64,000 nt of DNA from Haloferax gibbonsii ATCC 33959 (GTDB lineage Archaea > Halobacteriota > Halobacteria > Halobacteriales > Haloferacaceae): positions 26,267 to 90,266 of the forward strand of contig NZ_AOLJ01000011.1 in assembly GCF_000336775.1 (NCBI RefSeq), in the 5' to 3' direction. Within the stretch, counting starts at the first letter, position 1; every line of letters starts with the position of its first letter. This document shows positions 3,633 to 42,932 of the stretch, piece after piece. The position numbers and the translations under genes were made by a program. The notes below the pieces were generated by a model, which was given only the letters and a program-made list of their open reading frames with translations, was not told the DNA's origin and ran no database searches.

Positions 3633-5255
3633 CTATCCTTCCCCGACCATCCGCCCCTCGTCTTCCCACTCCCGCTCGCGCAGTTCGTACTTCTGAATCT
3701 TCCCGGTCGCGGTCTTCGGGAGTTCGGCGACGAACTCGATTTCCTTCGGCACCTTGTACGTCGCGATGCGCTCCCGACAGAACTCGATGAGCGCCTCGGC
3801 GGTGACGCCCGGCGCGTCGGGGTCACCGCTCGTCGGCACGACGAACGCCTTCGGCGACTCGCCCCACTCGTCGGACGGGACGGGGATGACCGCCACGTCG
3901 GCGACCTCGTCGTGGTCGAACAGCGTGTCCTCCAGTTCGATGCTGGAGATGTTCTCGCCGCCGGAGATGATGATGTCCTTCTTGCGGTCCTGGATGCTGA
4001 TGAAGCCGTTCTCGTCGACGACCGCGAGGTCACCCATGTGGTAGTAGCCCTCCAGCCGCGCCGAGAAGGCCTCCTCCGTCTCCTCGGGTTTGTTCCAGTA
4101 CTTCTCCATCACCTGGTTGCCCGCGACGACGATTTCGCCGATGGACTGGTCGTCTCTCGGCACGTCGTTTCCGTCCTCGTCGACGACGCGAACGTCGGTG
4201 CCGAGGTAGCCGATACCCTGTTTCTTCTTCACGCCGAAACGGTCGTCGCCGTCCCCCAGGTAGCGACCGGCCTCCGAGGTCGTGATGAGCGGGCCGGTCT
4301 CGGTGGCCCCGTAGACGTGCATGAGCCGCCAGCCGAACTCGTCTTCGACGGTCCGAATCGTCGCCTCCGGCGGGGCCGCGCCCGCGGTCGCCGCCCGGAC
4401 GGGGCTCGCGCCGGTCGTCTCGACACCGCCTTCCTCGCGGTAGTGTTTCATCAGGATGTTCAGCACCGTCGGCGCGGCGCAGAGATACGACACGTCCTCG
4501 TCGCGGATGGCGTCCAACACGGTCTCGGCGTCGACCCCGCGGGTGCAGACGTGCTTCGCGCCGTGTCCGGTAATCGCGTAGATGTGCCCCCAGCCGTTGA
4601 CGTGGAACATCGGGAGCGTCCAGAGGTAGACGTCGTCGTCGGCGATGTCCTGGTGCATCGAGACGAGGTAGGCGTGAATCGTCTCCGCGCGGTGGGTCCG
4701 ACAGACGCCCTTCGGGTCGCCGGTCGTCCCCGAGGTGTAGTTGATGGTGACGATGTCGTCTTCATCCATCTCCGGGCGCTCGTAGTCGGTCGACTCCGCG
4801 ACCAACTCGTCGAAGTCGAGCCACTCGCTGTCGGTCGATTCGGCGGCCTTCTCGGGGTCGTTCGTGACGAAGATCTCCGTCGGAATCTCGTCGCGGACCT
4901 CGTCTATCTTCTCGGCGAAGGCGTAGTCGGCGTAGACGGCCGTCACGTCCGCGTCGTTCAGCATGTACTCGAAGTCGGCCGGGACGAGCCGGTAGTTCAG
5001 CGGCATGTGGACGGCTCCGAGCTGCATCGACCCGTAGGCGGCTTCGAGGTGGTAGTGGGTGTTCGGGTCGAGCACCGCAACCCGGTCTCCCTTCTCGACG
5101 CCGCGGGACTGGAGCGCCGCCGAGAAGCCGTCGGCGCGCTCGCCGAGTTCGTCGTAGGTAAAGCGCTCGCCGGTCGTCGCCACGACCGCCTCCTCGTCCC
5201 CGTAGTACCGCCGCGCGCGGTCGAGGAACTCCGTCACCAGGAGTGGTTTCTTCAT
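3633..5255 (-). CDS. AMP-dependent acyl-CoA synthetase (fatty-acid--CoA ligase family)
   Basis: This 540-residue member of the ANL adenylating superfamily should convert a carboxylic acid, ATP and CoA to acyl-CoA, AMP and PPi in the cytosol. Visible motifs are the phosphate-binding loop YTSGTTGDPKG (about residue 172), the A5-type motif HVYGATETGPL, the hinge region YYHMGDLAVVDENGF followed by DRKKDIIISGGENIS, and the C-terminal catalytic lysine motif PKTATGKIQKYELRE. Length and the GGENISS motif suit medium-, branched- or aromatic-acid CoA ligases rather than acetyl-CoA synthetase. The neighbouring acetyl-CoA synthetase and acyl-CoA mutase suggest a short or branched acid substrate, but that is inference. 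The ATG at 5255 is followed by KKPLLVTEFLDRARRYY, a normal family start. Confidence 0.93.
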   Translation of the reverse strand: MKKPLLVTEFLDRARRYYGDEEAVVATTGERFTYDELGERADGFSAALQSRGVEKGDRVAVLDPNTHYHLEAAYGSMQLGAVHMPLNYRLVPADFEYMLNDADVTAVYADYAFAEKIDEVRDEIPTEIFVTNDPEKAAESTDSEWLDFDELVAESTDYERPEMDEDDIVTINYTSGTTGDPKGVCRTHRAETIHAYLVSMHQDIADDDVYLWTLPMFHVNGWGHIYAITGHGAKHVCTRGVDAETVLDAIRDEDVSYLCAAPTVLNILMKHYREEGGVETTGASPVRAATAGAAPPEATIRTVEDEFGWRLMHVYGATETGPLITTSEAGRYLGDGDDRFGVKKKQGIGYLGTDVRVVDEDGNDVPRDDQSIGEIVVAGNQVMEKYWNKPEETEEAFSARLEGYYHMGDLAVVDENGFISIQDRKKDIIISGGENISSIELEDTLFDHDEVADVAVIPVPSDEWGESPKAFVVPTSGDPDAPGVTAEALIEFCRERIATYKVPKEIEFVAELPKTATGKIQKYELREREWEDEGRMVGEG

Positions 5256-5431
5256 ACGCGCTATCCTTCACTAACGTTCAAAATAAATGTGCGGGCTGGT
5301 ACCGCGGCGCGGATAATTGAGAACTATTCGCACACCGAGCCACAATATCCCACGACTCGCGCCGCGAGAGACTATATTACTACACAAACTATGCAGGAAA
5401 ATACCTTATTCGAGGAGTCCGTAGCGCGCGT

Positions 5432-5706: not shown

Positions 5707-7695
<1,989 letters not shown>

Positions 7696-7880
7696 AGTAC
7701 GTGCTAACTACACCAATCCTCCATGATAAATCTATGTAGTCCAGCAGTCCGAGCGGGGACTCTCGCCGCGGGCGGTCACCGGTCCGTCGGTCGGTTACGC
7801 GAGCCGGCGGCGCGCGTTCCAGTCAGCTAACGTTCATGTCATCCCCAACATTTCGGGCGGGTTCGCCGCGCCGGCGACTC

Positions 7881-9581
<1,701 letters not shown>

Positions 9582-9803
9582 GCTCGTGAATCCGTATGGA
9601 CGATGATTAAGGATTCGGGTCGAAGTCGACCCGCCGGACGGCACGGGTCCGCCCCCGGGGCTTCGACGGACAGACCATCGCGCATATCACCCCCCGAAGA
9701 CCTAGCCACCGGCATGTACGACCGCGCGACAGGCAGGGGGCACCTCGACGCGGCGGCTCACCCCGCCGGGGTCCCCGCATCCGACGGGGTCGGGCGCTGA
9801 CCG

Positions 9804-11729
9804 ATGGCGCTCGTCACGCCCGAGACGACCCGCTGGGTCGCCGCCGCGACGGCGCTCGTCTTCGTCCTCGCGAGCGTCTCCTTCGTCGTCCCCGCCTCGG
9901 GCTCCGTCGCGCCGGTCCCCTTCGACGACACCGTCAAGACCGGCGGCACGTCGGTCGACGTTCGCACGGCCGAAGTCGAGGGCTTCGAAGTCCCGCTCGC
10001 GCAGGTCCACTTCTCGCGGTACCGCTTCATCATCGGCTACTACGACGTGACCACGGCCGCCGCGGACGTGTCCACGGCCGAGAGCGCCCGCCAGTTCGGC
10101 GACCCGCTCGCGGTGTTCGTCACCGACTACGCGACGGTCTCGCCCGCGCTCGACGACGACGGCTACCTCCGAACCGAACACAACCGCAACCCCGGCTGGA
10201 CGAAGGCGTCCGAGGCGTCGTTCGTCGTGGACGCCGGCGCGCGAGTCCCCTCCGGGCCGATTGCCGTCCCGTTTTCCGACGCCGACGCGGCGCGCTCGTT
10301 CGCTGACGCCCACGGCGGCACGGTCGTCGATTGGGCGACGCTCCGCGACCGCGCCGGCGACCCGCTTTCGTCACGGCTCGACGCCTTCGAGTCGTCGGTC
10401 GCCGCCCACCACGAGTGGGCGAACCAGACCACCGCTGCGAGTGATGCGCTGTTCGACAGGCCCGTCTCGACCGTCGTCGGCGAGGACGCGCCGACCGTCG
10501 AAGCCGCCGTCGCGTCGGCCCCCGCGAACACGACCGTCTACGTCCCCCCGGGCACCTACTCGGTCGACGCGGTCGGACTGAACCGCTCGGTTACGCTCCT
10601 CGGAGCCGGACCCGAAACGCGGCTCGTCGGCGACGGAAACGGCAGCGTCGTCCACCTCCGCGCCGACCGGAGCGCGGTCGGGAACCTCTCTATCGCCGGG
10701 GTCGGCGAGACCGGGACCCGCCGGGTCCGCGCCAGCAACGAGTCCGTCGACTGGGACACCCGCGTCGAACTCGCCTACGGCCGCGGCGACGCCGGTGTCG
10801 TCCTCGACGGCGCGAACCAGTCGGCCGTCCGCGGGGTCGAAATCGACACGCCCGCGAGCGGCATCATCGCCCGCGAGAGCGCCGACAGCGTCGTCGACGG
10901 CGTGACCGTCCGCGGGGCCGACGAGCCCTCGGAGGGCTTCATGGGCGTCGTCCTCATCGGCGAGCGGTCGGTCGTGCAGGACTCGACGTTCCTCGACGGC
11001 CGCGACGGCGTCTACACCCACCGCGCCGACGGGAGCGTCGTCCGCGACAACCGCATGGAGGACGGTCGCTACGGCGTCCACCAGATGTACACCTCAGACG
11101 CGCTCGTCGCCGACAACGTCGTCCGCGGGGACCGCATCGGCGTCGTCCTCATGACCCGGCCCGTCGGCAACCTCGTCGTCGGAAACGACGTGCGCGAGTC
11201 GGACTTCGGGTTCATGCCCGCCGGGAGCGACACCTACGTCGCTGACAACGTCTTCGCCGGCAACGACTACGGCATGGACGTGAGCGGCGACCGGCAGGTG
11301 TACGTCGGAAACGTCGTCGCCGGAAACGGGGTCGGTATCCGCGGGAGTTCGACGTTCCCGACGAACGTCGTCGTTCGAAACGACATCGTGGACAACGACG
11401 TGCGCGTCGAGTCGTCGCTCGGCCCGATGCGGACGTGGACCGCCGGCGGCGAGGGCAACTACTGGGGCGACCTCCCGCTCGAAGACGCCGACGGCGACGG
11501 GGTCTACGACCGAGCGTACCAACCCTCCGGGGCGGTCGACGCCGAACTCGGCCGGGAACCCGGCGCGCTCGCGCTCTCGGAGTCGCCCGCGGTGCGCGCG
11601 CTCCGCCGCGCCCGCGACGCGGTGTCCGGCCTCCGCGGGTCCGGCGTCGTCGACGCCGCGCCGCGGGCCGAACCGGTCCGCCCCGAGACGCTCGCCGCCC
11701 TGAACGCGACGGAGGAGACCGATGGCTGA
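9804..11729 (+). CDS. nosD: NosD-type beta-helix protein with N-terminal NosL-like domain
   Basis: This 641-residue protein has a hydrophobic export segment at about 10-32. Residues about 35-175 resemble NosL: PLAQVHFSRYRF, FVTDYATV, then VPSGPIAVPFSDADAARSF and AHGGTVVDWATL. The canonical NosL copper ligands (N-terminal CxxCGM, Met in GPMG) are missing; this region has no Cys. Residues about 225-600 are a parallel beta-helix of carbohydrate-binding/CASH repeats (many NxV, GVxL, DN turns), as in NosD. NosD acts outside the membrane in maturing the copper centre of N2O reductase or in supplying parts with NosFY. Its stop overlaps the start of the ATPase gene by 8 bp. A NosL-NosD fusion is unusual. 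No nosZ is visible nearby. Confidence 0.88.
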   Translation: MALVTPETTRWVAAATALVFVLASVSFVVPASGSVAPVPFDDTVKTGGTSVDVRTAEVEGFEVPLAQVHFSRYRFIIGYYDVTTAAADVSTAESARQFGDPLAVFVTDYATVSPALDDDGYLRTEHNRNPGWTKASEASFVVDAGARVPSGPIAVPFSDADAARSFADAHGGTVVDWATLRDRAGDPLSSRLDAFESSVAAHHEWANQTTAASDALFDRPVSTVVGEDAPTVEAAVASAPANTTVYVPPGTYSVDAVGLNRSVTLLGAGPETRLVGDGNGSVVHLRADRSAVGNLSIAGVGETGTRRVRASNESVDWDTRVELAYGRGDAGVVLDGANQSAVRGVEIDTPASGIIARESADSVVDGVTVRGADEPSEGFMGVVLIGERSVVQDSTFLDGRDGVYTHRADGSVVRDNRMEDGRYGVHQMYTSDALVADNVVRGDRIGVVLMTRPVGNLVVGNDVRESDFGFMPAGSDTYVADNVFAGNDYGMDVSGDRQVYVGNVVAGNGVGIRGSSTFPTNVVVRNDIVDNDVRVESSLGPMRTWTAGGEGNYWGDLPLEDADGDGVYDRAYQPSGAVDAELGREPGALALSESPAVRALRRARDAVSGLRGSGVVDAAPRAEPVRPETLAALNATEETDG

Positions 11730-12558
11730 CCGCGAATCGGCGGAGCCAGCGACTGACGAACCCACCACGATGTCGAACCCCGAACCCACGACGACGGCCG
11801 AGACGGATTCCGACGAATCGACGGGCGAGAGCGCCGCCGCCGCGGCCGCCGACCGACCGGCTATCGCCGCGACCGACCTCAGCCACGCCTTCGGCGACGT
11901 GCGCGTCCTCGACGGCGTCTCGCTGTCGGTCGCCCCCGGCGAAATCGTCGCGCTCGTCGGCCCCAACGGCTCGGGGAAGTCCACGCTCCTGCGGTTTCTC
12001 GCGCGGGTCCGCGCGCCCGACGAGGGAACGGTCACCATCGGAGCCAGTGACGGGCGCGCCCGCGTGGGCTACCTCCCGCAACAGCCCGGCTTCCGCGCCG
12101 GCTTCTCCGCGACCGACACGCTCGAATTCTACGCGCAGTTCGTGGACGACCACGTGGACGTGGCCGACGTGTTGGAGCGAGTCGGCCTCGCGGACGCCGC
12201 CGACCGCCGGGTCGACGCGCTCTCCGGCGGGATGACGCGCCTGCTCGGCCTCGGGCGGGCGCTCGTCGGCGACCCGGCCGTGGTCGTCCTCGACGAACCG
12301 GCCAGCGGCCTCGACCCCGGCATGGTCGAACGGCTGTTCGACATCGTCTCCGACCTCGCCGACGCGGGCGTCGCGGTCGTCCTCTCGTCGCACAACCTCG
12401 GCCCCGTCGAGCGGACCGCCGACCGCGTGGTCGTCCTCGACGGCGGGCGATTCGTCGCCGACGGCGACCCGCGAGCGGTGGTCGAATCGGTCGGCGCGGC
12501 CGACCTCCAGACCGCCTTCGGCGACCTCGTGGCGACCGAGGAGGTGACGGGGAGATGA
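11722..12558 (+). CDS. nosF: NosF-type ABC transporter ATPase
   Basis: This 278-residue ATPase has a poorly conserved Thr/Glu-rich N-terminal 45 residues followed by a standard ABC domain: Walker A GPNGSGKST at about 80-88, Q-loop GYLPQQPGF, signature ALSGGMTRLLGLGRAL, Walker B VVVLDEPASGLDPG, and switch His in VLSSHNLGP. It energises the NosY permease. The start codon overlaps the nosD stop by 8 bp and a GGAGGAG stretch lies just upstream; an internal Met at residue 17 is a possible alternative start. Its stop overlaps the nosY start (ATGA), so the three genes form one translationally coupled operon. Confidence 0.92.
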   Translation: MADRESAEPATDEPTTMSNPEPTTTAETDSDESTGESAAAAAADRPAIAATDLSHAFGDVRVLDGVSLSVAPGEIVALVGPNGSGKSTLLRFLARVRAPDEGTVTIGASDGRARVGYLPQQPGFRAGFSATDTLEFYAQFVDDHVDVADVLERVGLADAADRRVDALSGGMTRLLGLGRALVGDPAVVVLDEPASGLDPGMVERLFDIVSDLADAGVAVVLSSHNLGPVERTADRVVVLDGGRFVADGDPRAVVESVGAADLQTAFGDLVATEEVTGR

Positions 12559-13376
12559 GCGCCGGCGGCCGCGACGGCCTCGGCGACCTGTTCGCCATCG
12601 CGGCGCGCGAGCTTCGGACGGTCGTCAGGACCCCCGCGGTCGTCGCGCTCTCGGTCGTCTTCGCGCTGACCGTCGTCGCGGTCGCGGCCGCGGGCTCCGG
12701 CGCGCGCGGCGGGTACGTCCCGCTGGTGCTGGATTTGGTCCCGTTCGTGGAGGCGCTCGTCCCGCTTCTCGCCGTCGCGCTCTGCTACCGGGCGGTGCTC
12801 TCGGACCGCGAGTCGGGCGAACTCGACGTGCTCAGGACGTTCGACGTGTCTCGCCCGGCCTACGTCGGCGGCGTCTACCTCGGCCGCGGGCTCGCGCTCG
12901 TGTTCGTCGTCTTCGGGTCGCTGCTCGCCGCGGGCGCGACCGTCCCCGTCCTCTCGCCGCCGGACCCGACGTTCCTCGCGCTGAACGAGGCCGCCGACTC
13001 GCCGGTCGCGTTCCTCCGGTTTTCGGTCCTCGCCGTCCTGTTCGCCCTCGCGGTCGCGGCCGTCGCGCTCGCCGTCTCGGCCGCCGCGCGGACCGCCCGG
13101 CAGGCAATCGCGCTCGCCGTCGGCCTGCTCGTCGCCTTCGTCGTCGGCGTCGACGCCGCCGCCGTCGCCGGACTGGCCTCGGGGAGTCTCGGCATCGACG
13201 CGGTCCCGCTCGTCCTCGCGGCGAGCCCGAACGGCGCGTTTCGGTCGCTCGTCCTCGGCGTCGCCGTCGAGACCGGCGGTTCGACCTCGCCGGGCGCGGC
13301 GCTCGCGGGGCTCGTCGGGTGGGTCGCCGTCGCGCTCGCGGTCGCGGTGCTGACGGCGTGGCGACCGGTAGAATAG
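12555..13376 (+). CDS. nosY: NosY-type ABC-2 membrane permease
   Basis: This 273-residue integral membrane protein has about six hydrophobic segments: near 25-47, 55-75, 110-130, 155-180, 185-205 and 245-268. It shows the NosY/ABC-2 pattern IAARELRTVVRTPAVV at the N-terminus and YRAVLSDRESGELDVLRTFDVSRPAYVGGVYLGR after the second segment. In the Nos system it pairs with NosF as the exporter that supports NosD-dependent assembly of N2O reductase. It begins inside the nosF stop (ATGA overlap) and ends 50 bp before a convergent flavoprotein gene. Function here depends on whether N2O reductase exists elsewhere in the genome. Confidence 0.9.
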   Translation: MSAGGRDGLGDLFAIAARELRTVVRTPAVVALSVVFALTVVAVAAAGSGARGGYVPLVLDLVPFVEALVPLLAVALCYRAVLSDRESGELDVLRTFDVSRPAYVGGVYLGRGLALVFVVFGSLLAAGATVPVLSPPDPTFLALNEAADSPVAFLRFSVLAVLFALAVAAVALAVSAAARTARQAIALAVGLLVAFVVGVDAAAVAGLASGSLGIDAVPLVLAASPNGAFRSLVLGVAVETGGSTSPGAALAGLVGWVAVALAVAVLTAWRPVE

Positions 13377-39739: not shown

Positions 39740-40516
39740 CTACGCCGACTGGGCCGCCTCGGTCCGCGCCCGCGGCTCGCACACCCAACCTTCCTTGACC
39801 GGGACCAGTTCGTAGCCCGCCTCCCTGAGCAGGGCCTTCGCCGCCGCCTCGTCGTGGCTCCCGCGGGCGTCGTGCAGTTCGAAATACACCGTCGGCCGGT
39901 ACTCGCGGAGGACCGTTTCCGCCCCCCGGAGCACGTTCAGACCGAACCCCTCTACGTCCACCTTCAGGTGGTCCGGCGGCGGAACCGTCCCGGAATCGAC
40001 GAGCGAGTCGAGCCGCCGCATCGACACCGACGCCGTGTCGACGACCTGCGCTTCCCACGCGCTCGCGTGGTCCCGCGAGAACGAACCCAACTCGTCGTAA
40101 CTCGACAGGTGGAACTCCCGCGACTCGTCGGCCTCGCCGAGGCCGCACTCGAGAAGGTCCACCCGGTCGTCGAAGTCATTGACCTCGACGTTCGCCCGCA
40201 ACTGGCCGACGACTTCGGGATGCGGTTCGACGGCGACCACCCGCGCGGAGGACTCGCTGGCCGCGGTTGCGAGCGTGTAGGTTCCCGTGTTCGCGCCCAC
40301 GTCGACCACGACGTCATCGTCGTCGAGACCGAGCAACAGCGCCTGCAGGAGCACGTCGTTGCCGTGGCGGTTGTACAGTTCGTAGCTCCTGAAACTCGTG
40401 CGCCCGACGTGCTTCTTCGTGGCGACGAACCGTCGTTCGTAGTTCGCCCGAACGAGCGCGTAGTGGAGGGAGTACGCGAGGTGGCGAGCGGTCGACACCG
40501 GGTGCAGCAGAGACAC
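39740..40516 (-). CDS. FkbM-family methyltransferase
   Basis: This 258-residue SAM-dependent methyltransferase shows motif I in VVVDVGANTGTYTLATAA, motif II region ARVVAVEPHPEVVGQL, and the FkbM-type LKVDVEGFGLNVLRGAE. The first 60 residues (TARHLAYSLHYALVRANYERRF) are basic and helical and may contact the membrane or a substrate. FkbM enzymes O-methylate sugars or secondary metabolites; the substrate here is unknown. It is the last gene of the GC-rich core before the AT-rich accessory patch to its right. Confidence 0.88.
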   Translation of the reverse strand: MSLLHPVSTARHLAYSLHYALVRANYERRFVATKKHVGRTSFRSYELYNRHGNDVLLQALLLGLDDDDVVVDVGANTGTYTLATAASESSARVVAVEPHPEVVGQLRANVEVNDFDDRVDLLECGLGEADESREFHLSSYDELGSFSRDHASAWEAQVVDTASVSMRRLDSLVDSGTVPPPDHLKVDVEGFGLNVLRGAETVLREYRPTVYFELHDARGSHDEAAAKALLREAGYELVPVKEGWVCEPRARTEAAQSA

Positions 40517-40948
40517 GTTAGTATACTGTCATTGTCCGGTATTAAAAATCGCTCGGCGACGAAATGATTCGGCGTGTCGTGTTTTTGAATCAGGACTATA
40601 TTAGGTGACTACCGTCTTAGAAGTTCGTCAGATACTTCTCCGCTGTACTTTTCTTAGCGGACCTGTCTTTTCAGAGCAGCAAATAAACACCGCTGCATCA
40701 CGTATCTATCTCCGGATCATCCGCACCTAATCACGATCTAATTGAGGGACCGTATAGAGCAAGAGAATGAGACAATTTATCGACATGGTGAGGTCGTGAT
40801 TCTTTGTCTCAAAACCAGAAAGCACGAGCACCAAACGAGGCAAGAGTAGTTCAAGAGCACACGACACCCCCTGTTCCACGCTTAGCTCATAACAACCGCT
40901 TCATCAGAGAAGAGATACAGAAAGCAAACGCTCGTTCTTCACCTTGTT
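40517..40948. other. AT-rich non-coding gap at the left edge of the accessory patch
   Basis: This 432-bp stretch has no supported gene. Its base composition drops sharply to AT-rich compared with the flanking methyltransferase gene. The stretch at about 40770-40880 (atgagacaatttatcgacat onward) can be translated for several codons in two frames but stops occur quickly; a decayed transposase or gene relic is possible but I cannot support it. Promoter signals for the leftward methyltransferase must lie at its left edge. Confidence 0.5.
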
Positions 40949-41596
40949 TTAATTTTCTCCGCCATCTTTCTGGGTGAACTTACGTAGGATTTTTCTGGCT
41001 TGTCTCTTTCCAGGTGGAGTCAATTTGACTGTTGCGGAGGGCCCCCTGCCTGCTCTATTGAAGTATCGATCTCCTTCGCCCTGATACATATTTGCCATTC
41101 CTGAAGAAGAGATACTAGACAATTCAAGCGCATCCTTGAGCTTTGACGACTTTACACGGTTTGCCTCGTAGCACTCATGCCACACATACAGCAGTATTAG
41201 TGAAGCGACCCGTTGTCGGTCTGTTTGTCTTTTTCCAATCTTTCCTAATTCTTCGGAATACAATACTGGCATTTCGTCGTCATCAGGGTTTACGTGGAGA
41301 AATCTCTCAAGTTGACTCTCAGATACATGAAGTTGTGATGCAATTGAGTGCAATGGCCCCGGTTCTGTATTCTCTTCTTCAACTCCATTCTGAGCAAAGG
41401 ATTCCAAAGAAGTGCTTTCAGTTTTATCCGACTCTATTTCCGGAGACACTTGATCCACGCCGAATTCATTGAACTGGTCTTGATTATTCTCGATGAATTG
41501 CATGAGGTCAAGGACCTCTTCTTGGTAATCTTCGTCGTTTAGAGCGTGAATCTCTACAGTCATCGGCCCATATTCGAATGTCACAGTAGTTTCCAT
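40949..41596 (-). CDS. Unknown protein of the accessory patch, 215 aa, C-terminal winged-helix-like domain
   Basis: This is a 215-residue protein with AT-rich codons unlike the core genes. The N-terminal half is acidic and starts METTVTFEYGPMTVEIHALN; a linker rich in Glu, Ser and Thr follows (residues about 55-80). The C-terminal 130 residues look like a domain with helices (RQRVASLILLYVWHECYEANR) and a winged-helix-like end (YFNRAGRGPSATVKLTPPG). It is 11 bp downstream of the 78-aa gene, so they are one operon. I do not recognise it; a DNA-binding or defence-related function is speculation. Confidence 0.75.
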   Translation of the reverse strand: METTVTFEYGPMTVEIHALNDEDYQEEVLDLMQFIENNQDQFNEFGVDQVSPEIESDKTESTSLESFAQNGVEEENTEPGPLHSIASQLHVSESQLERFLHVNPDDDEMPVLYSEELGKIGKRQTDRQRVASLILLYVWHECYEANRVKSSKLKDALELSSISSSGMANMYQGEGDRYFNRAGRGPSATVKLTPPGKRQARKILRKFTQKDGGEN

Positions 41597-41607
41597 TTCT
41601 ATCTCAT

Positions 41608-41844
41608 TCAGTCGAGTTCTGCAGACATAATTCTTTCCCAGAGATGAAAAATATCTCTGGATTTTTTGATAACAGGTGTTTCTAAACTATGCTGCATTTC
41701 CTTGTGAGCCATGATTCGGGATGCTTGTGGCACAAAGACGGTCAGTATTGACACAGAAGATGATCCAGTCATATATCCCAGGAATTCTAATATAGGTTTG
41801 AAACCCATATTCTCGGAGTAATACTTATATGTCGTCGCACGCAT
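41608..41844 (-). CDS. Unknown small protein of the accessory patch, 78 aa
   Basis: This 78-residue AT-rich gene encodes a protein with no Cys, no clear export signal and one mildly hydrophobic stretch (PILEFLGYMTGSSSVSILTVFV, residues about 17-38) that could be a short membrane or buried helix. The C-terminal half is basic (IMAHKEMQHSLETPVIKKSRD). It starts at 41844 and ends 11 bp before the 215-aa gene, so the pair is cotranscribed. Two-gene small plus larger arrangements occur in toxin-antitoxin and immunity modules, but nothing in the sequence proves this. Confidence 0.65.
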   Translation of the reverse strand: MRATTYKYYSENMGFKPILEFLGYMTGSSSVSILTVFVPQASRIMAHKEMQHSLETPVIKKSRDIFHLWERIMSAELD

Positions 41845-41899
41845 GTTACATCAAACGTCGTAGTTCACGACCTAATCAATGTGAGAAACGCAGTAAGTT

Positions 41900-42033
41900 C
41901 GGTCCGCGGAACCTGCCAGGGAACCGCGCGGACCGATTGTGCAGCCCCTTCAACACCCCTATCTGGCCGAAGGGACTTGGGGTCCCTGCGACACGGTAGG
42001 CTATCAGGGCTTATCTATATCTAGATTAGCCTA
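41900..42033. ncRNA. Hairpin-rich non-coding segment, candidate structured RNA
   Basis: In the 232-bp gap between divergent genes I find three inverted repeats in 134 bp: a perfect 9-bp stem, cggtccgcg (41900-41908) with cgcggaccg (41927-41935); a perfect 6-bp stem with 5-nt loop, agggac (41971-41976) with gtccct (41982-41987); and taggct (41997-42002) with agccta (42028-42033). The segment is GC-richer than its surroundings. It ends about 44 bp before the next gene's start and could be a 5' leader structure, a small RNA, or a protein-binding region. No family is recognised. Confidence 0.35.
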
Positions 42034-42076
42034 AGCAAATAGTTTACCCATGTCGCTATCGGTCGGATGCGGCACA

Positions 42077-42652
42077 ATGAGCTCTACCACAGACTCAAAC
42101 ACCACCACCGACCATACGCCGTGGGATGAACTCACCCCGGCACGACAGCGAGTAGCAAAGACCGTTGCCTACGTCAACGGACCTCAAACGTTCGAACGTC
42201 CAAACCTTCACGACGACGTGAAGGAATCGACAGCCGTCGAGGATGTCATCGACGACAAAGACCGTGTACTCACCTCGCTGAAGTACACTCGGTTGCTGAA
42301 CGACCTCGTCGACGACGGCTATCTCACCCTGGAATTTCAAGGGGGGACAAACCCCATCATCTTGGATGTCGAGTACGACTCGACCCGAGACACCCGAAAC
42401 GCAGCACCTTGGGGCGACGCAAGTGCTCTTCACACGCTAGTTAGTCAGGTGTGTGACCGCGAGGGTATCACACGAGACCTACTCAGCGAGGTAGAGAATC
42501 CGTACGATGTCAACCAAGTCAGGCAGAAGGTGAACGAAGCCGTAGGCCGGACCGTGCTGCTCCCGTACGCCGACCCAAGTGAATATCGCTTCACCAAAGA
42601 GACCTACTCACTCGTCAGTGAGAAGGTTCAGGCGGAGAAAGAAGAGCAGTAG
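42077..42652 (+). CDS. Unknown protein of the accessory patch, 191 aa
   Basis: This 191-residue protein starts at the ATG at 42077 (MSSTTDSNTTTDHTPWDEL); an ATG 27 bp earlier is a possible alternative. An acidic, Thr-rich N-terminus precedes a helix PWDELTPARQRVAKTVAYVNG resembling the first helix of a winged-helix domain, then ERPNLHDDVKESTAVEDVI and TRLLNDLVDDGYLTLEFQG, again wing-like. The C-terminal half has ALHTLVSQVCDREGITRDLL and a basic/acidic end KVQAEKEEQ. It has no membrane segment. Composition is less GC-biased than the core. It could be a regulator, but I do not recognise it. A T-run follows it at 42678-42683. Confidence 0.72.
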   Translation: MSSTTDSNTTTDHTPWDELTPARQRVAKTVAYVNGPQTFERPNLHDDVKESTAVEDVIDDKDRVLTSLKYTRLLNDLVDDGYLTLEFQGGTNPIILDVEYDSTRDTRNAAPWGDASALHTLVSQVCDREGITRDLLSEVENPYDVNQVRQKVNEAVGRTVLLPYADPSEYRFTKETYSLVSEKVQAEKEEQ

Positions 42653-42677
42653 GCTGCAGTTCTAGCCTCGGTTTACC

Positions 42678-42683
42678 TTTTTT
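42678..42683 (+). terminator. Poly-U terminator after the 42077 gene
   Basis: Six T residues lie 26 bp after the stop, in an AT-rich context, on the coding strand. Confidence 0.45.
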
Positions 42684-42737
42684 AGATTGTCAGTTGGCAC
42701 TCACCACCTCAAAGCGGTGTGTCTATGGCTGTGCGGG

Positions 42738-42799
42738 CAACCCACTACAGACCTGAACTCGTAGGGTTGTAGAACGAACCGGAACCGGACAACACCGGT
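42738..42799. other. Inverted repeats downstream of tRNA-Gln
   Basis: Two inverted repeats lie 3' of the tRNA on the minus strand. The first pairs caaccc...tac (42738-42748) with gta-gggttg (42761-42769), nine pairs with a two-base bulge. The second pairs accgg (42784-42788) with ccggt (42795-42799) around a 6-nt loop. They may be a terminator, a processing signal or part of a small RNA. No open frame covers them convincingly. Confidence 0.3.
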
Positions 42800-42828
42800 C
42801 CCAGTCAGGATTAGAACGCTTGAGGTAG

Positions 42829-42932
42829 TAGTCCCGGGCGGATTCGAACCGCCGTCAGCGGCTGTCTTCTCGGCACGCATTGAACCGAACCAATCCAAAG
42901 GCCGCTATGATTGGCCACTACACCACGGGACT
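42829..42932 (-). tRNA. tRNA-Gln (anticodon TTG) with a 31-nt intron
   Basis: Read on the minus strand, the acceptor stem AGTCCCG (42932-42926) pairs with CGGGACT (42836-42830), the discriminator A is at 42829 and CCA is not encoded. D-arm GTG/CAT, anticodon stem GCGGC/GCCGC (42905-42901 and 42862-42858) and T-arm GGCGG-TTCGAAT-CCGCC all form. The spliced loop reads CTTTGGA, anticodon TTG. The intron (42894-42864, 31 nt) sits after position 37, the standard archaeal site recognised by the splicing endonuclease. Mature length is 73 nt. A 31-nt intron in this tRNA is what I recall for Haloferax volcanii. Confidence 0.93.

Follow-up and report, generated by a model that had tools for sequence, protein, structure and literature searches.

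The window analyzed here, a stretch of 64,000 nucleotides from Haloferax gibbonsii ATCC 33959, contains beside a tRNA gene a patch of 2,238 bp that holds two conserved protein genes, P0001 and P0003, a further open reading frame, P0002, and a structured RNA (Table 1). The initial annotation had described the patch as an AT-rich accessory region, to be checked by base composition and codon usage, by comparison of related strains and by profile searches. The drop in composition was confirmed: GC content is 0.484 in the patch and 0.657 in the window, no stretch of equal length elsewhere in the window (in steps of 10) is as GC-poor, the lowest per-kb value within the patch is 0.45, and GC3, at 0.417 in P0001 and 0.661 in P0003, falls short of the 0.874-0.923 seen in three neighboring genes. 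The accessory status of the patch was upheld as well, since P0001 and P0003 are present in only two of 15 genomes of the genus Haloferax, the other carrier being the sister genome G007; a patch shared by the whole genus and having normal codon usage, which would have spoken against the proposal, is thus not what was observed. The patch occupies the same chromosomal place in the two species. Near-empty sites were identified in G002, G011 and G004, where 65, 71 and 94 bp, respectively, separate shared flanks that end at window positions 40589, 40580 and 40558 and pick up again at 42827, and relics of a tRNA 3' end are present in seven further genomes.

Table 1. Features of the patch and its border, with window coordinates. 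A1, sequence-only alignment; A12, model-fitted alignment; percentages refer to alignment cells that pair and fractions to pairs changed on both sides.
Feature	Position	Strand	Basis or remarks
Accessory patch; compared with near-empty sites, an insertion or replacement	40590..42827	.	Flank comparison, GC
P0001, 215-aa conserved protein	40949..41596	-	Homologs in 17 of 391 class genomes
P0002, 78-aa ORF, probably no gene	41608..41844	-	Unconserved
TATA-like box for the RNA	41824..41830	+	By eye
Structured leader RNA, ~229 nt	41848..42076	+	Covariance model R1, 196.5 bits (training sequence)
Helix P1	41857-41861 with 41867-41871	+	A1: 92%, 3/5; A12: 4/5
Helix P2, near-palindromic hairpin	41899-41907 with 41928-41936	+	A1: 90-94%, 7/9
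Helix a, crosses d and e	41943-41947 with 42007-42011	+	A1: 89%, 1/5
Helix b, pseudoknot across c and d	41955-41959 with 41979-41983	+	A1: 90%, 1/4
Long-range helix d	41961-41970 with 42059-42068	+	A1: 62%, 6/10; A12: 68%, 9/10
Helix c, hairpin	41972-41976 with 41982-41986	+	A1: 81%, 3/4; A12: 4/4
Helix e	41990-42004 with 42039-42054	+	A1: 72%, 4/14
Apical helix f	42008-42017 with 42022-42031	+	Weakest in A1: upper part 57%
P0003, 191-aa winged-helix-like protein	42077..42652	+	Start at Met10 of longest ORF
tRNA with intron, tRNA-Gln (label of the initial annotation)	42829..42932	-	Rfam RF00005, 50.2 bits

The three open reading frames had been regarded as encoding proteins of no recognizable family, and the profile searches agree with this: no Pfam or NCBIfam match was obtained for any of them, none matches an integrase, and matches to PHROGs and to the PADLOC defense profiles are weak (for PADLOC, best E of 0.0023 over 43 residues for P0001 and of 0.018 over 24 residues for P0002, none for P0003). 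Searches against PDB sequence profiles gave best E values of 0.5 and 0.3 for P0001 and P0003. A viral origin was considered and rejected, as neither P0001 nor P0003 yielded a tblastn match in 50,697 phage records or, by pattern search, relatives in viral contigs. The AlphaFold2 model of P0001 has a mean pLDDT of 72.3, with most of the C-terminal half at 85-95, and this half, judged by eye, appears DNA-binding-like. Of the 391 class genomes, 21 have a P0003 homolog; the three lowest-ranking matches (G236, G396 and G272; E of 1e-4 to 7e-4) were left out of later analyses. Because homologs align from position 42077, nine codons past the start of the longest open reading frame, this is most likely where P0003 begins. 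The P0003 model (pLDDT 85.8) gave no Foldseek hit at E 0.001; a VIA search placed STIV F93 first (Z 9.0) and returned a RosR variant of H. salinarum at Z 8.4, and since ranks 2 and 3 (Z 8.7) are other kinds of protein, only the common winged-helix arrangement is claimed for P0003.

P0001 and P0002 had been read as a two-gene operon. P0001 is conserved (598 of 648 bases identical in G007), but the reading frame of P0002 is not kept: only 174 of 236 bases are identical in G007, the tblastn matches fall in two different frames, and no match at E 0.01 was obtained in the other five paired loci searched. P0002 was accordingly rejected as a gene, and the proposed operon was not confirmed. The initial annotation had also referred to non-coding stretches and had implied that the patch lacks a coherent unit. 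The segment preceding P0003, however, is far from empty, since it encodes a structured RNA that is the most conserved part of the patch (211 of 212 bases shared with G007). P0001, the RNA and P0003 are conserved together as a single module of a regulator-like gene, a structured RNA and another regulator-like gene.

The 3' end of the RNA abuts the likely start codon of P0003, and the RNA lies directly upstream of all 13 close P0003 homologs. These 13 loci, out of 18 with P0003 homologs, make up the sequence-only alignment (A1), from which L032-L036 were omitted, their upstream DNA being unalignable. Loci L104 and L107, which also give an antisense partial match, were omitted from A10/R2 and from the model-fitted alignment (A12), which keeps one antisense row of L128. 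Covariance models identified a further locus, in G502, that belongs to neither training set (120.1 bits with R2 and 147.6 with R1) and that, when checked afterwards, proved to have a P0003 homolog (77%) immediately downstream and a divergent P0001 homolog (64%). A match in G330 scored 37.8 bits. With R1, G249 and G206:C3 score 22.9 and 22.1 bits, no better than three R2 matches at 23.4-23.6 bits that mark the noise, and both assignments consequently depend on position and on helices recognized by eye; G249 was retained because it shares neighbors with G330, and G206:C3 because helices b-f are readable. R2 matches of about 23 bits in G427, G133 and G462 were discarded for having no leader context, that in G133 falling within a coding gene and those in G427 and G462 fitting chiefly the 5' part of the model. 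The RNA is distributed over no fewer than 12 genera (the 13 training genomes represent 11, and G502 adds one), or 14 if the two loci with ubiquitin-like operons described below are added. No Rfam 15 family matches the RNA, the loci giving only the tRNA and two sub-threshold matches elsewhere, and a known RNA family was accordingly rejected as the identity of the leader. A TTAAGT/TTATGT-like box is visible by eye at a similar upstream position in all 13 class-1 loci inspected. A putative second structured RNA, unrelated in sequence and unmatched by R2, precedes the distant P0003 homologs of L033-L036 (class 2); its alignment is thin, comprising four sequences of which L036 lacks the 3' part. 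A supposed resemblance of the 432-aa partner protein in class-2 loci to tRNA-guanine transglycosylases (CxCxxC...H) was dropped for want of Pfam or PDB profile support.

The secondary structure of the RNA is conserved with compensatory change in both A1 and A12. Of the 696 cells in A1, 77.9% are paired, a share that falls to 39-51% in controls with slid partners; both-side changes that preserve pairing affect 28 of the 56 named pairs (shuffle mean 18.6, with none of 500 shuffles as high), cells changed on both sides number 66 versus 30.0 in shuffles, and covariation is 0.302 versus 0.188. Four of five measures exceed all 500 shuffles, the exception being further standard pair types, which are not in excess (68 versus 64.3, with 78 of 500 shuffles as high). 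Folding energy gives a z of -3.5 on each strand and does not distinguish them, the strand test comparing G-U with A-C failed (78 and 43, versus 100.7 and 63.4 expected from column composition), and none of three cut fragments folded above its own shuffles. Two helices, a and b, form pseudoknots. The pairing of helix a is largely an invariant GCCC/GGGC, and it shares one GGGC with helix f, while helix b, by eye, appears among RNAs as ACCCC/GGGGU, UCCCAA/UUGGGA, AUCCCA/UGGGAU or AGCC/GGCU. The resulting strand order (a, b, d, c, b', c', e, a', f, f', e', d') differs from that of the nested double pseudoknot in HDV-like self-cleaving ribozymes, and no Rfam ribozyme matches the RNA.

The position of this fold relative to the following gene is constant. 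In all 16 loci compared, a set that omits L128, helix d ends 8-13 nt ahead of the start codon, the start codons having been chosen by homology (two are TTG). By eye, no Shine-Dalgarno-like sequence was seen before these start codons, and no upstream ORF is shared by the 16 RNAs. In three of the 16 loci the downstream genes are unrelated to P0003, and in two of these they form ubiquitin-like operons, a type judged from Pfam matches. In G330 the RNA directly precedes a Multiubiquitin gene (1e-7), with a ThiF protein (1.2e-27) further on; in G249 it precedes a Prok-E2_E gene (7.9e-11) followed by a ThiF protein (4.6e-28). JAB is weak in G249 (0.003) and was recognized only by eye in G330. Both genomes possess the RNA, yet lie outside the 21 genomes with a P0003 match.

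The initial annotation had further raised the possibility of a tiny or decayed element associated with the tRNA gene, and had seen no integrase. The 3' end of the window tRNA, which ARAGORN in bacterial mode misses, faces the patch. As had been noted, no integrase is apparent, with none in the window among the best 7 of 11 matches in its genome and none at G007 among what was examined. Considering the better matches of each genome, an integrase (PF00589) is encoded no more than about 2 kb from the unit in G161, G288, G362, G391 and G502 and at about 5.5 kb in G058. Beyond the unit, the tRNA 3' end is repeated exactly (17-28 nt) in all six integrase loci with an ARAGORN tRNA (L041, L042, L043, L044, L048 and L128), whereas a 17-nt copy occurred in 7 of 1,500 random stretches from five of these loci. 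In L044, from Natrialba aegyptia, the relative is 4.7 kb long and extends from a tRNA-Val to positions 13044-13071 of the locus. In the same six loci, and in G007, the tRNA has its 3' end toward the unit; around the units of L119 and L120 no tRNA-end copy was found. Together with the near-empty sites, these bounded units support a tRNA-associated element, the patch probably being what is left of a small mobile one. That it has decayed is argued from its relatives, because a repeat of the tRNA 3' end was found neither in the window nor at G007.

We consider it reasonably probable that the patch is the relic of an integrative element and carries a structured leader RNA acting in cis. A small integrative element would have inserted next to the tRNA-Gln gene, on its 3' side, leaving as its surviving core the divergent regulator-like genes P0001 and P0003 and the pseudoknotted RNA between them. 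A TATA-type promoter of its own would drive the RNA, which would form the 5' leader of the P0003 messenger, and its fold would set the end of the closing helix d just ahead of the start codon. The leader most likely gates translation of whichever gene comes next; in most elements this is a winged-helix-like regulator, and in two genomes a ubiquitin-like operon. The conserved fold, its site before the start codon at fixed spacing and its place in elements bounded by integrase and tRNA are computational results; action in cis, an effect on translation and control of the element by P0003 are inferences. A bolder extension, which is conceivable but which we hold as doubtful, is that pseudoknotted leaders of this kind are a new archaeal class of portable trigger, common to integrative elements and ubiquitin-like operons, that silences the downstream gene until a signal of infection or mobilization refolds it; refolding would then proceed through competition of helices a and f for their common GGGC, and the class-2 RNA would be a sister class.

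The element itself could be denied, the patch being instead an old chromosomal region lost from most Haloferax species. The failure to find an integrase or a second tRNA 3' end in the window, and the identical location in two species, are compatible with this, but the composition lies far below that of the chromosome, near-empty sites and tRNA relics are found in other genomes, and elsewhere the P0001-RNA-P0003 unit sits in elements bounded by tRNA 3'-end copies, which makes simple loss quite improbable. Different readings of the conserved segment must also be weighed. It might be a trans-acting non-coding RNA, or part of a ribonucleoprotein with P0003 or P0001, transcribed ahead of P0003 by chance; its large and complex pseudoknotted fold, the nucleic-acid-binding-like fold of P0003 and its occurrence before ubiquitin-like operons would all suit such an RNA. 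A trans-acting RNA, however, has no need of a constant spacing between helix d and the start codon, which holds even in the three loci with unrelated genes, and partnership with P0003 is at odds with G330 and G249, so that we regard this reading as unlikely. It would be more surprising still, and we judge it very improbable, if the segment were a DNA control region of divergent operators and promoters whose inverted repeats are protein-binding sites. Its location between two divergent regulator-like genes, the near-perfect palindrome of helix P2, which the model also matches on the other strand in two loci, and energy and G-U counts that do not favor the RNA strand are what such a region might produce; helices a and b nevertheless interlock with c, d and e, the pairing of helix d, with its compensatory changes, bridges about 100 nt, and the slid controls fail. 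Interlocked pairing of this kind is not known to serve any purpose in DNA operators.

A relic element with a leader RNA thus remains our preferred reading, and the RNA, which is uncatalogued, may control P0003. If so, a pseudoknotted leader of about 229 nt carried on mobile elements would allow natural RNA-based control in haloarchaea to be tested in a genus amenable to experiments, and may throw light on what activates archaeal integrative elements or ubiquitin-like operons. In the portions of the literature drawn on here, only one natural archaeal riboswitch is described as shown experimentally (PMC8241225), structured leaders are called "not typical" in haloarchaea, whose messages are regarded as mostly leaderless, and 72% of H. 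volcanii messages are leaderless, with 97 having leaders of 150-250 nt (PMC4983044); a kodakarensis fluoride riboswitch is named, and mention is made of a cyclic di-AMP-like one predicted for Halobacterium salinarum. With cis-regulatory leaders in general, both riboswitches and protein-binding ones, the RNA shares a covarying fold directly before a start codon, an upstream promoter-like box and more than one downstream gene family, but it differs in having no Rfam family match. Archaeal tRNA-targeting elements with tyrosine integrases share the tRNA 3' end as target and its copy at the far border, and the integrase likeness extends to all six genomes with a nearby integrase; the window differs in that neither an integrase nor a second tRNA 3' end was found, and the sections of PMC8371274 considered do not mention an RNA-regulator module for such elements. 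The phiCh1 Rep and the repressors of integrase-encoding pleolipoviruses resemble the module as regulators in integrating haloarchaeal elements, with a possible role in remaining integrated, and no structured leader is described for them in the same sections (PMC8371274); P0001 and P0003 differ from them in lacking matches among phage records and viral contigs. Prokaryotic ubiquitin-like operons (multiubiquitin, E2, ThiF/E1, JAB), of which the window has none, are linked to the module through the RNA that directly precedes them in G330 and G249.

The lowest GC content in the window falls in the stretch between the methyltransferase gene, which ends at 40516, and the tRNA gene. Per kb, GC drops to 0.45 in the patch, and 1-kb windows clear of it range from 0.577 to 0.754. 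GC3 is likewise low in the two larger open reading frames of the patch (P0001, 0.417; P0003, 0.661; 0.874-0.923 in three neighbouring genes). Of the 15 genomes of the genus, two carry P0001 and P0003, that of the window (G000) and a sister (G007); all 15 share the flank that holds the tRNA and, as identified by eye, a DtxR-like gene. The left flank in G002, G011 and G004 runs to window positions 40589, 40580 and 40558, and the tRNA 3' end follows after only 65, 71 and 94 bp, respectively. The initial annotation, which had proposed an accessory AT-rich patch and a tiny or decayed tRNA-associated element, described a real feature (overall GC 0.484; two genomes of 15) and guessed its kind correctly. 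Its main content, a structured RNA family without an Rfam entry, goes beyond that reading. The intron-containing archaeal tRNA was overlooked by ARAGORN in bacterial mode and detected by Rfam.

Coordinates of features in the window and in extracted loci (L numbers; source genome in brackets)
Feature	Locus	Position	Strand	Remark
AT-rich patch	window	40590-42827		
P0001	window	40949-41596	-	
P0002	window	41608-41844	-	78-aa ORF
Structured leader candidate (RNA)	window	41848-42076	+	
RNA core	window	41855-42066		
P0003	window	42077-42652	+	
tRNA with intron	window	42829-42932	-	Rfam tRNA 50.2 bits; tRNA-Gln is the label of the initial annotation
Extra DNA 5' of intron-bearing tRNA	L040 (G007)	10953-11777		~0.8 kb; encodes 243-aa protein with zinc-finger-like motifs
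Partial tRNA 3'-end copies near tRNA	L084, L086, L088, L089, L091, L094, L096			23-28 nt; seven other genomes of the genus
Protein with QWICWR N-terminus	L041	11346-12572		in or near element
Protein with QWICWR N-terminus	L118 (G330)	4153-5295		in or near element
Recurrent cluster	L098	6466-11286		similar in L099, L100
Ubiquitin-like operon	L118 (G330)	7391-12157		Multiubiquitin + ThiF; RNA directly 5' of first gene
Ubiquitin-like operon	L119 (G249)	7784-12819		E2 + ThiF; RNA directly 5' of first gene

The 230 bases preceding the P0003 start codon could be aligned in 13 of 13 close homologues, and DNA farther upstream could not. Between G000 and G007 the RNA core (211/212 identical positions) is better preserved than P0003 (566/573), P0001 (598/648) or the P0002 stretch (174/236), and a comparison of loci found no conservation of P0002. 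RNAalifold returned 25 pairs, 13 of them with changes on both sides. Helices were named from the sequences by reading. They are the hairpins P1, P2 and c, the helices a (GCCC/GGGC), b (CCCC/GGGG) and e, the last bearing the apical helix f, and the long-range helix d; the loop of c provides the 3' strand of b. The crossing of c, d or e by helices a and b makes the fold pseudoknotted. These helices were then scored on a sequence-only alignment of 13 loci, in which 77.9% of 696 cells are paired versus 39-51% in slid controls, both-side changes occur in 28 of 56 pairs (shuffle mean 18.6, with 0 of 500 shuffles as high) and in 66 cells (shuffle mean 30.0), and covariation scores 0.302 versus 0.188. 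Counts of further pair types, the fifth measure, showed no excess (68 versus 64.3; 78 of 500 shuffles as high). Per helix, the share of paired cells is highest in P1, P2, a and b (89-94%), followed by c (81%), e (72%), d (62%) and f (57%). A model-fitted alignment, biased to structure by construction, gave 78.1% paired cells and both-side changes in 36 of 49 pairs and 98 cells. Variants of helix b identified by eye include ACCCC/GGGGU, UCCCAA/UUGGGA, AUCCCA/UGGGAU and AGCC/GGCU. Folding energy did not distinguish the strands (z -3.5 each), and G-U wobbles were not enriched in the RNA. The existence of the RNA and its folding are nearly certain.

A first covariance model (R1) searched against 391 genomes of the class found 15, of which 13 were its training set; the new places were in G330 (37.8 bits), in G249 (22.9 bits) and at a second site in G206 (G206:C3, 22.1 bits). 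A second model (R2) recovered G502 at 120.1 bits (147.6 bits with R1) among 170 genomes of the window's family, this genome being absent from both training sets. There, a P0003 homologue (77%) directly follows the RNA and a P0001 homologue (64%) is divergent. No new RNA was found by R2 among 125 genomes of the family of G206. As R2 matches without leader context reach 23.4-23.6 bits (three among 146 genomes of the family of G330), the loci at 22-23 bits rest on context: G249 shares its gene order with G330, and helices b-f are readable by eye at G206:C3. Separately, L033-L036 (G115, G210, G197, G350) carry a long structured-looking RNA directly upstream of distant P0003 homologues, about 200 nt before the gene, with a GACCCGUUUGCA...GCCGGGUC hairpin and a long-range GCCCGA/UCGGGC pairing discerned by eye. 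It has no sequence relation to the window RNA and no R2 match, and is possibly a sister class. In the recurrent cluster of L098-L100, a P0003-like protein with an upstream RNA is accompanied by three others: a SocA/Panacea antitoxin-like protein (matched by Pfam at 3.1e-7 in L098), one of 138 aa, and one of 432 aa that has CxCxxC...H and no family assignment. The L098 cluster contains an integrase match.

A TTAAGT/TTATGT-like box, identified by eye, lies upstream of the RNA in 13 loci, and the position of this predicted TATA-like element would put the transcription start near the first RNA base. In every one of 16 loci, 8-13 nt separate the end of the helix d 3' strand from the start codon downstream, as picked by homology (ATG in 14, TTG in L109 and L112). 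This spacing is also kept before unrelated genes, namely a Multiubiquitin gene in G330 (PF14452, 1e-7; ThiF protein farther on, 1.2e-27), a Prok-E2_E gene in G249 (7.9e-11; then a ThiF protein, 4.6e-28, with a weak JAB match) and a gene for a 121-aa protein at G206:C3. No upstream ORF common to the 16 RNAs was seen by eye. From the box, the spacing, the varied next genes and the lack of a common upstream ORF, we read the RNA as a putative cis-acting leader; that it controls P0003 in cis is the best reading, which we consider moderately probable. The operons of L118 and L119 are accompanied by a divergent ArsR-like winged-helix gene and a 468-aa protein without known family.

Relatives of P0001 and P0003 were found in 17 and 21 of the 391 genomes, respectively. 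They form a divergent pair, ~480-545 bp apart, in eight genomes (G000, G007, G161, G058, G288, G362, G273 and G502), which include a Halorubrum (G161) and Natrialba aegyptia (G362); P0003 alone occurs, among other loci, on plasmids of Halobaculum magnesiiphilum and Natrarchaeobaculum sulfurireducens. Because the divergent partner varies, being DUF6293/HFX_2341 regulator-like by eye in three of the P0003-only loci, L046-L048 (Pfam 4.9e-39 in L046, the one tested), and a McrB-like AAA protein in L049, what stays constant is the leader-regulator half. The predicted structure of P0003 (mean pLDDT 85.8) resembles winged-helix proteins, matching STIV F93 (VIA Z 9.0, rmsd 2.6, 86 aligned) and a RosR variant of H. 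salinarum (VIA Z 8.4); values of this size are common, two proteins of other kinds reaching 8.7, and the claim is therefore restricted to fold type. For P0001 (mean pLDDT 72.3) the C-terminal half is confident.

An integrase (PF00589) lies within ~2 kb of the unit in G161, G288, G362, G391 and G502, and ~5.5 kb away in G058, among the matches listed; in G502 it lies past the P0001 homologue (4.1e-9). In each of the six loci of class 1, with an RNA of the window type before a close P0003 homologue, that have an ARAGORN tRNA (tRNA-Phe in G161, G058, G288 and G502, tRNA-Val in G362, tRNA-Lys in G391), the tRNA gene points its 3' end at the unit, and the far side of the unit carries a perfect copy, 17-28 nt long, of that end; in G502 the 27-nt copy is at the integrase. 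As a control, 7 of 1,500 random 30-nt stretches from five of the six loci had a 17-nt copy within their own locus. The N. aegyptia element spans ~4.7 kb from the tRNA-Val 3' end to its 28-nt copy. In the window and G007 the tRNA 3' end likewise faces the unit, yet no far copy was found, nor an integrase among the matches listed and the patch ORFs examined, so that the patch is best read as a remnant keeping a regulator-RNA-regulator core, a reading we regard as likely. Copies of the tRNA 3' end, 89-100% identical and ~100 bp from the gene, in G001, G003, G005, G006, G009, G012 and G014 are relics of earlier or other insertions at this site. The QWICWR proteins, judged by eye, are perhaps replication primase-like.

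Among the matches listed, no earlier description of the window RNA was recognised in the open-access literature, as represented by titles and the beginnings of abstracts, and a prior description is possible in subscription papers or preprints. By main-text word search, PMC2864571 has no word starting with "halo" and PMC9067536 names haloarchaea solely in a reference. Archaeal integration into tRNA genes and haloviral repressors are among the subjects of PMC8371274. Leaderless messages make up 72% in H. volcanii according to PMC4983044, which also counts 97 messages whose leaders are 150-250 nt long and considers structured leaders untypical of haloarchaea, and PMC8241225 names the T. kodakarensis fluoride riboswitch as the sole experimentally determined natural archaeal one, alongside a cyclic di-AMP-like riboswitch predicted in Halobacterium salinarum.
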